From positions 1 through 64,000 of the forward strand of contig NZ_NFKI01000013.1 of assembly GCF_002160305.1 (NCBI RefSeq): 64,000 nucleotides of DNA. The letters are read 5' to 3'. The notes below the pieces were generated by a model that saw only the letters and a list, made by a program, of their open reading frames with translations, was not told the DNA's origin and did no database searches. Position 1 is the first letter of the stretch. The number at the start of each line of letters is the position of its first letter. A program made the translations under genes and the position numbers. Shown piece by piece: positions 1 to 53,185 of this stretch. The DNA is from Pseudoflavonifractor sp. An184. GTDB lineage: Bacteria > Bacillota > Clostridia > Oscillospirales > Oscillospiraceae.

Positions 1-335
1 GCCCTGAATGCCTTGCATGGCAAGGCGTTCAGCGAGCGCAGCGAGGACTTTTGCGCCGAACACCGGCGCAAAAGTAACGGCATTTTTGCAGGCTGTCGGA
101 AAAGTCCTTAGACTTTTTCGACAGCCTGAGTGCGGGCCTATGGCCCGCACTTTCAGTTTGCCGAAAAACCTCTATTAAGAGGAATCCGCCCGAGTTATGG
201 CGGGGGAGCTCGAGGGGGCGGCAGCCCGCCTCGAGTGGGATCGAATGCTCCGAACGCCTTGCACGGCAAGGTGTTCGGCGAGCACAGCGAGGACTTTTGC
301 GCCGCACAGCGGCGCAAAAGTAACAGCATTTTTTA
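1..335. repeat. Tandem copies of a TIR-type intergenic repeat element
   Basis: No gene is seen before the sigma factor. The stretch holds two copies of an about 88-nt block (1-87 and 247-334: ...gcgagcrcagcgaggactttt..., ending in a T-run after 'aaaagtaac'). Between them are a 40-nt hairpin ending at 130 (arms 'GGCTGTCGGAAAAGTC' / 'GACTTTTTCGACAGCC'), a locus-specific palindrome at 131-151 with a TAT loop, and a unit starting 'TCAGTTTGCCGAAAAAC'. The same units in the opposite orientation lie at 22551-22773, where they form one element with terminal inverted repeats. The first copy runs off the left edge of the window. Confidence 0.8.
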
Positions 336-22433: not shown

Positions 22434-22524
22434 CCGGACAAATGCGGGCCTTTCCGGGAGCGGGCCGCTTGAAGGACCGCTCCCTCTGCTCCAAATTTCA
22501 TTTTTCTTACTCTTTAGAACAGAA

Positions 22525-22803
22525 GGGGGCACGACCTGGGTCGTGCCCCCTCAGGCTGTCGAAAAAGTCCAAGGACTTTTCCGACAGCCTGAAAAAATGC
22601 CGTTACTTTCCCGCCGCTGCGCGGTGGAAAAGTCCTCGCTGCGCTCGCTGAACGCCTTGCCCTACAAAGCATTCAGGGCATTTGATCCCACTCGAGGCGG
22701 GCTGCCGCCCCCTCGAGCTCCCCCGCCAATACTCGGGTGGATTCGTCTAAACAGAGGTTTTCCGACAAGCTGAGGGGGCACGACCTGGGTCGTGCCCCCT
22801 TTA
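22525..22803. repeat. TIR-bounded miniature element between two identical terminator hairpins
   Basis: The 26-nt hairpin with arms GGGGGCACGACC / GGTCGTGCCCCC occurs at 22525-22550 and again, identical, at 22774-22799, where it is followed by TTTATTTG. Between them lies a 223-nt element that begins TCAGGCTGTCGAAAAA and ends with the complement of TCAGCTTGTCGGAAAA, i.e. terminal inverted repeats matching at 13 of 16 positions. The body corresponds to 1-335 in inverted orientation. No coding sequence fits in it. Confidence 0.88.
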
Positions 22804-23243
22804 TTTGTATAAGGGGAGCCGCCCGCTAGGCGTGTGATTCCCAAAAGCCGGTGGGGAAGAATAAAAGACTCCTGTTAGGGCAAGCGTGCGGTCCACCAGA
22901 TGTGCAAAAATTGACAGGGAGGTATGATTCGTAATGGGAATGAGTGACATAAACCATTTATCTCACACAAGATGAAATTGCAAATACATGTGCACAGTCC
23001 CGCCGTATCTCCTGTGCCATCGTATTTACATTTCTTCCTGCCGGCCGCGCGCTCTCCTGGCAGCTCAGATCACCCACATGATGGTTTCCTATACTGCGTT
23101 CTTTTTTGCTGGGATGATGGCGGCTCGAGTAGTCCCACTGGAGTCCTGGTTGTGTGGGTCCCCCATTCTTTCACAGGGGCCGATGCGAACTCTTTTTGCT
23201 CAATCCAAAGTGTTATGCTGTATCGTGTAATTTGTCTGGGCAA
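22804..23243. other. Gene-poor stretch
   Basis: About 440 bp with no convincing gene. Short open frames exist on the plus strand but lack ribosome sites and family features. Base composition drops compared with the GH13 gene, and the last 60 bp contain TGTGA/TCACA palindromes described separately. It may hold decayed coding sequence; I cannot identify it. Confidence 0.5.
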
Positions 23244-49287: not shown

Positions 49288-49520
49288 GAAAACTCCCGCT
49301 TCGGAGCCGTCCGAAGCGGGAGTCAAACTGTCAAAACCATATACTTTAAGGGTTCAGAGGGAAAGATAGTGTGAAAGAAAACCGTCAGGGTTGTCTTTCA
49401 CGTGCAATCACCTCACTTTCCAGAACGGTTTATCGTTCTGGAAAGTGCTGTCAGCTTGTTGAAAAGATTTTTTCGACAAGCTGAACTCCCGCTCCGGATG
49501 ACTCTGGAGCGGGAGCTTTT
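49288..49520. repeat. Run of five hairpins between yibE/F and sstT
   Basis: In order: ACTCCCGCTTCGGA-gccg-TCCGAAGCGGGAGT (49292-49323); GTGAAAGA ... TCTTTCAC (49371-49402); CACTTTCCAGAACG ... CGTTCTGGAAAGTG (49413-49449); TCAGCTTGTTGAAAAG-ATTTTTTCGACAAGCTGA (49450-49483); ACTCCCGCTCCGGA-tgac-TCTGGAGCGGGAGC with a T-run (49485-49520). The first and last are diverged copies of one terminator. The fourth equals the two terminal inverted repeats of the 22551-22773 element joined end to end. Confidence 0.85.
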
Positions 49521-52994: not shown

Positions 52995-53185
52995 GCTGTG
53001 ACTCAATGGCAGCGCGTCTCACGCGTGGTAGGAAGACCGTCGGTTGTCCGTAAGGTCAGCAATCCCAACCCGCCCAAAAGTCAATATGCTGGAATAGCTC
53101 AGTCGGTAGAGCAGCTGATTCGTAATCAGCAGGTCGCCGGTTGTCCGTAAGGGCAGCGACTCTAAGCCTACTCAAAAGTCTATAT
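52995..53185 (+). repeat. Tandem partial tRNA copies upstream of tRNA-Thr
   Basis: 53088-53137 is an exact 50-nt copy of the first 50 nt of the tRNA-Thr gene at 53186. It then diverges into a tail (53138-53185, CGGTTGTCCGTAAGGGCAGC...). The same tail, slightly diverged, lies at 53041-53087, after a sequence with a tRNA-like D-arm (GACTCAATGGCAGCGC). The repeat period is 98 bp. The partial copies have no T-arm or acceptor 3' strand, so they cannot fold as normal tRNAs. Confidence 0.8.

Follow-up and report, generated by a model that had tools for sequence, protein, structure and literature searches.

What has happened where a terminator hairpin stands, letter for letter the same, on both sides of a short stretch of noncoding DNA? 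The locus is in a window of 64,000 nucleotides, by which we mean the whole stretch analyzed (contig C35, positions 1-64000), of Pseudoflavonifractor sp. An184, whose genome (G000) is a 3.59-Mb draft in 162 contigs. Our reading, which we hold with a probability of roughly 0.8, is that the element is a nonautonomous MITE moved in trans by a DDE transposase of the IS1182 family, and that joining to an extruded cruciform, followed by gap repair, duplicated the entire hairpin. The main site is made up of the following features:

22524-22551, plus strand: left target duplication, consisting of A, the 26-nt terminator hairpin, and T (repeat comparison)
22551-22592, plus strand: palindromic left end of 42 nt, the TIR followed by its own inverted copy, outer T included (sequence)
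22552-22772, plus strand: MITE proper, 221 nt, CAG...CTG (sequence reading, ORF list)
22773-22800, plus strand: right target duplication, the same as the left (repeat comparison)
22800-22806, plus strand: T-tail TTTATTT on the right hairpin copy, its first T being the last base of the duplication (sequence)

The element proper begins with CAGGCTGTCGAAAAA and ends with TTTTCCGACAAGCTG, and no ORF of at least 100 amino acids in the window's ORF list overlaps it. Each target copy reads A-GGGGGCACGACC-TG-GGTCGTGCCCCC-T, 28 nt in all, and the right copy runs on into TTATTT. The 26-nt hairpins at 22525-22550 and 22774-22799 have the same letters and the second retains its T-tail, just as the initial annotation of this DNA had described. 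That annotation had drawn a 223-nt element with 16-nt TIRs. The TIRs stand: allowing up to three mismatches, their pattern has 12 matches in the window against a shuffle mean of 1.88, and 12 was reached in 0 of 100 shuffles. The length does not, because the outermost T and A of those TIRs are part of the 28-nt target duplications; we assign them to the target since the base outside CAG in IS copies of a same-genus relative may be T, A, C, or G. The element is short (221 nt) and noncoding, has TIRs, and is dispersed in many copies (40 scored genome candidates), as expected of a MITE; it also has a target duplication and element-free sites in relatives, some of these being anchored by one flank.

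Does the arrangement recur? Across the whole genome the TIR pattern, with at most one mismatch, gave 183 matches compared with 0 for a reversed control. A search of G000 with the MITE body listed 66 rows, from which 40 main places were used; the other 26 are mostly the inverted copy within the palindromic end, together with the shorter matches C117:3-112 and C127:14764-14913. Flanking hairpins, which the initial annotation had made the touchstone of its proposal, adjoin both ends in 27 of the 40 best matches, and the remaining 13 mostly have one end truncated or off the contig. The copies on C127 and C135 have the right hairpin cut, and the one on C82 is flanked by a whole hairpin at one end and half a hairpin at the other. 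The same adjoining test found a hairpin at 247 of 5000 random window positions. The hairpin sequence itself differs at nearly every locus of the genome. Contigs C11, C19, C57, C68, C89, C94, C108, C122, and C128 all start inside the MITE, so the short repeat seems to break the draft assembly and the true copy number may be higher.

From stretches of this genome totaling 229 kb, we collected 36 insertions flanked by direct repeats (16-40 nt); having a repeat was the condition for inclusion, and small related elements of 156-204 nt are among them. The center of the repeat coincides with that of the hairpin to within 0.5 nt in 70 of the 72 repeat copies, and a centered stem scoring at least 8 is present in 32 of 36 left copies versus 4 of 1800 shuffles. 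The unit that is duplicated is thus the hairpin itself. One variant without the left palindrome (C132:1313-1468, 156 nt) has identical 28-nt hairpin copies on both sides. At least four T residues within nine bases of the 3' tail were counted at 32 of 36 sites, contig orientation and chance level being uncontrolled, and the target at C79:10615, a palindrome with little T-tail or A-tract, was used all the same. When all sets are pooled, the repeats of 92 insertions span 16-41 nt, even and odd lengths alike. The two copies are identical in 64 of these 92 pairs, which had been picked for similarity, and differ in 28.

Three of the 92 pairs (C78:16294-16514, L236, and L132) consist of a left hairpin and, on the right, its exact reverse complement, as if one hairpin had been flipped about its axis. 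The script flagged C78:16294 and C90:25954 as inverted, of which the latter is inexact and is not counted; L236 and L132 were spotted by eye and then confirmed.

If the hairpin was duplicated on insertion, what do relatives without the element have at the corresponding places? The best matches to the window among 15 genomes searched are G010 and G075, and the element is present in at least 18 of 64 genomes of the genus, part of the candidates having been scored. Relatives have a single hairpin and no element at three of the four sites compared, the hairpin letters having diverged at most of these element-free sites. At the window site, G010 has a single hairpin with its T-tail; the homologous left flank is the only anchor, the right flank being on another contig. 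In G075 the counterpart has diverged beyond legibility. At the L007 site, both genomes have a single hairpin beside a homologous right flank, and the left side contains extra DNA (about 1 kb in G010, a different short insert in G075). The L008 site is likewise a single hairpin beside a homologous right flank in both, the left flank being located elsewhere. Together with the flanking hairpins, these sites, partly read from one flank, support the target duplication that had been proposed from the window alone.

The fourth site, L003, could be compared in G010 only, as G075 has no spanning contig. Both flanks are homologous, and between them, where G000 has the window-type MITE, lies a different element of 204 nt, the third small one (L213, G010:C167, about 73660-73900). 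It is flanked in turn by a terminator hairpin of its own, present in two identical copies. As read from its sequence, this is an independent insertion.

The window has two further sites. The one at its start comprises:

1-128, minus strand: second copy of the MITE, truncated where the contig starts, 91% identical (alignment)
130-150, plus strand: hairpin separating both copies (sequence)
154-334, minus strand: third MITE copy, without the palindromic end, 86% identical (alignment)

Here one copy of the element beside a palindrome at 131-151 had been described. Element and hairpin are both present, in the form of two reverse copies (1-128 and 154-334) with the hairpin at 130-150; no hairpin was seen at the truncated end of the site. 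The order element-hairpin-element occurs at window positions 1-334, at the end of C127, and at the start of C117, and it is to be expected if a duplicated hairpin is targeted again. The other site contains:

49292-49323, plus strand: hairpin, left copy (sequence)
49324-49483, plus strand: 160-nt small element belonging to a second family, its right terminus similar to that of the MITE (sequence, alignment)
49485-49516, plus strand: hairpin, right copy, diverged (sequence)

That an element lies between two diverged hairpin copies had been correctly seen. The 34 nt taken for two directly joined TIRs are, in fact, the palindromic end of this different element, the other end of which adjoins the left hairpin copy. 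A relative of 161 nt at C97:83794-83954, which agrees with it in 138 of 161 aligned columns, is also placed between two diverged hairpin copies. This second small family is represented by window 49324-49483, L193, and L194. Alignments of G010 and G075 span 49324-49483, and the insertion there is therefore probably older than the split of these species. Elsewhere in the window, 53088-53149, just upstream of tRNA-Thr, is an Rfam tRNA match of 34.4 bits (gathering threshold 29) without an ARAGORN call.

Which enzyme might have moved the element? The NCBIfam profile NF033551 (IS1182 family transposase) was searched against 40 genomes, G000 included, and found matches in 16. The complete genome G007, of the same genus, has 29 of them. 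Its IS measures 1590 nt from CAG to CTG and starts CAGCCTGTCGAAAAAGTC, compared with CAGGCTGTCGAAAAAGTC in the MITE; the left ends agree at 17 of 18 bases, and the left end of the IS at L081 in G007 has 14 consecutive nucleotides in common with the MITE end. The partner transposases score 394.7 and 399 bits to NF033551, for which the cut-off is 270, and contain the domains DDE_Tnp_1_6, DDE_Tnp_1, and DUF772. When the MITE was compared with four IS sequences, no match was found in its interior, and the longest common run, 14 nt, is terminal. In the 162-contig draft of G000 we found no IS1182 copy whose ends match; of its four NF033551 matches, one (L084) is full length, and it has another type of terminus. 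Given the shared ends and the want of an own-genome copy that matches them, mobilization in trans by an IS1182-family transposase is what we infer from the sequences. The missing mover is no bar to filing the element under IS1182, since a MITE can outlive its mover, and the latter may have been lost from G000 or may be unassembled.

The IS copies themselves have the same habit. We inspected 40 IS places, 29 of them in G007 and 11 in G011, further G011 fragments being left out. Both ends were located in 35 of these 40, and a direct repeat was found by script in 19 of the 35. The 16 copies without one include L115, in which the repeat copies differ through a 1-nt indel, leaving 15. The script found a hairpin at both ends in 14 of the 16, the two being unlike each other except at L115; at the remaining two copies, L129 and L138, one longer hairpin, missed by the script, is visible by eye. 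Under the test used for these genomes, 67 of 3000 random window positions had a hairpin, and on the two tests (247/5000 and 67/3000) chance association is rejected. Several of the mismatched end hairpins recur, sometimes reversed, at the ends of other copies (L126/L127, L126/L123, L129/L138, and L130/L133). They are likely to be scars of recombination between IS copies, an explanation that accounts for some of the mismatched copies and not for all.

How widespread is this habit? A scan of GTDB genomes kept 80 loci among more that matched, and 65 were examined, after 8 copies in AP018533 (taken as G011) and 7 partial ones had been left out. Both ends were not found in 17, and 5 are at a contig edge, leaving 43 testable copies. 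A direct repeat holding a hairpin is present in 37 of these 43, mostly from Bacillota; 35 passed the threshold of the script, and L284 and L293 were recognized by eye. They include copies from Enterococcus, Streptococcus ictaluri, Neobacillus, Saccharibacillus, Anaerococcus, Fenollaria, Peptoniphilus, Acetobacterium, Chakrabartyella, Claveliimonas, several Oscillospiraceae, and one MAG labelled Chloroflexota. The other 6 of the 43 have no direct repeat, and two of the copies, L229 and L231, are not evidently hairpin-flanked on both sides. An IS1182 copy on a Bacillus subtilis plasmid has a whole duplicated hairpin. On two E. faecium plasmids, no duplicated hairpin was seen at the ISEfa7 copy L304, which has similar ends, or at the matching unannotated place L307; L308 and L309 give no clear picture of their flanks.

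A tree built from 39 transposases places the duplicating copies in a single group of 32 rows, the support for which is moderate (82/99) and below the starred level. The group also contains rows without a repeat, as well as ISEfa7, and the B. subtilis copy is outside it on a long branch. IS1182 relatives with other termini are outside the duplicating group as well, on long branches with uncertain joins. The copies of Enterococcus, Neobacillus, Streptococcus ictaluri, Chakrabartyella, and the B. subtilis plasmid have CAG...CTG termini and whole-hairpin duplication in common with the MITE; they differ in having a transposase gene and a length of about 1.5-1.6 kb, whereas the window element is gene-less and 221 nt long.

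How could a transposase duplicate exactly one hairpin, whatever its length? The target would be a palindrome that can fold into a hairpin, which in practice usually means a rho-independent terminator. In an extruded cruciform, the 5' feet of the two hairpins are neighbors at the four-way junction, and on linear DNA they are a whole hairpin apart; it is to these two feet that the two 3' ends of the element would be joined. Gap repair would then copy the hairpin on both sides, giving a duplication that is a complete stem-loop of any length, with the outer tails retained, the left copy keeping an A-tract and the right copy the T-tract. The hairpin would set the length of the duplication because the ends are joined at the two feet. 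The lengths of 16-41 nt, odd and even, are at odds with a single fixed spacing of the cuts in linear DNA, where the joints would be separated by 16-41 bp and would fall on every face of the helix. As each copy keeps only its outer tail, transcripts from the left would first meet a hairpin without a T-tail. The cruciform as the form recognized and the steps of repair are the inferred part of this scheme. We lean, by a small margin, toward a broader statement: that a large group of IS1182 transposases, with their MITEs, targets the extruded DNA cruciform, that DNA structure and not the protein sets the duplication length, and that each insertion records a cruciform formed in vivo.

Other explanations have to be weighed against this one. 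The hairpins adjoin most intact ends, and one could suppose that they belong to the mobile unit, the element carrying its own flanking terminators. Nearly every locus has its own hairpin, however, and element-free relatives keep a hairpin at the corresponding place, so we give this idea virtually no credence and reject hairpins carried by the element, different as they are at nearly every locus. Tandem hairpins present before insertion are rejected too, relatives having a single hairpin at three of four sites. Could the second hairpin have formed later, through slippage or gene conversion at palindromes next to the element? The three exactly reverse-complementary pairs indicate that hairpins can be reworked, but most pairs are identical (64 of 92, selected for similarity) and the repeats adjoin the element ends, and we find such an origin hardly credible.

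A fixed duplication of about 27 bp on linear DNA, combined with a mere preference for terminators that places hairpins in the repeats by accident, would suit the many repeats of 24-30 nt, and long target duplications are a feature of IS1202-group elements. What counts against it is the range of 16-41 nt, together with the centering of the hairpin to 0.5 nt or less in 70 of the 72 own-genome repeat copies; we regard it as very improbable, and a fixed or, as in the IS1202 group, near-constant length is rejected on the spread over 92 insertions. Instead of a double-stranded cruciform, the target might be a hairpin in single-stranded DNA, formed on the template of the lagging strand or where a transcription bubble has stalled. 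The mostly terminator-like targets (32/36 by the uncontrolled T count given above) would be in keeping with this. By reasoning, though, both strands have to be joined at opposite feet if a clean direct duplication is to result, and an extruded cruciform provides for this directly; the palindrome at C79:10615 was also targeted, with little T-tail or A-tract. We consider a single-stranded target unlikely, and the extruded cruciform remains our preferred reading.

Although the initial annotation knew of no named element with such a habit, the MITE belongs with the IS1182 family, in which IS1272 targets terminator hairpins, albeit with hairpin loss (PMC4923244, PMC5678879). IS1272 and TnSha1 are IS1182-family elements with 16-bp IRs that enter hairpins without a sequence consensus, several of them confirmed terminators (PMC4923244, PMC5678879); they resemble the group of the MITE in transposase family and in hairpin targets. 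The outcome differs: the hairpin is replaced by IS1272 (Wan et al. 2017, PMC5678879) or partly deleted on insertion of TnSha1 (Furi et al., PMC4923244), with no target duplication, whereas the window MITE has duplicated a whole one. Replacement of the IS1272 type, with the hairpin lost or split and nothing duplicated, does not describe our family, which has two-sided hairpins at 27 of 40 places and 36 insertions with direct repeats.

Nearer to IS1272 are L083 (G003:C9, about 405-1925), an ISPsp5 copy, and a Terribacillus plasmid copy. They have an IS1182-type transposase and palindromic surroundings with other termini, and their flanks look by eye like the two arms of one split hairpin, without a direct repeat. 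Whole-hairpin duplication was drawn by Wan et al. 2017 as hypothetical pathway b, a possibility for which the available text of that article reports no element (PMC5678879); here it is observed. The small multicopy repeats SPRITE, BOX, and RUP of S. pneumoniae, of which SPRITE is terminator-like, and other bacterial MITEs are discussed in PMC10969869, where the available text does not mention the whole-hairpin target duplication that the window MITE has. Hairpin targeting in the IS1182 family was thus known from IS1272, and what appears to be new, within the literature searched and the portions of it available, is whole-hairpin duplication as an observed habit.

No description of such duplication as an observed rule was found in that literature, the search of which was not exhaustive. 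ISfinder tables reportedly give direct repeats of 0 to 60 bp for IS1182, and specialists may therefore have noticed parts of this habit.

The length of a target duplication is usually taken as a constant of each transposase. Here it follows the target hairpin, from 16 to 41 nt, which suggests that the transposase measures DNA shape rather than length. For the element, the habit may offer a low-damage niche: insertion is mostly at terminator-like sites, and at either outer side a hairpin remains entire, tail included. Mismatched flanking hairpins can, in turn, mark past recombination between copies. The family offers a handle on two questions, namely, how a DDE transposase recognizes the shape of DNA and whether the palindromes of ordinary terminators are extruded as cruciforms in chromosomes.
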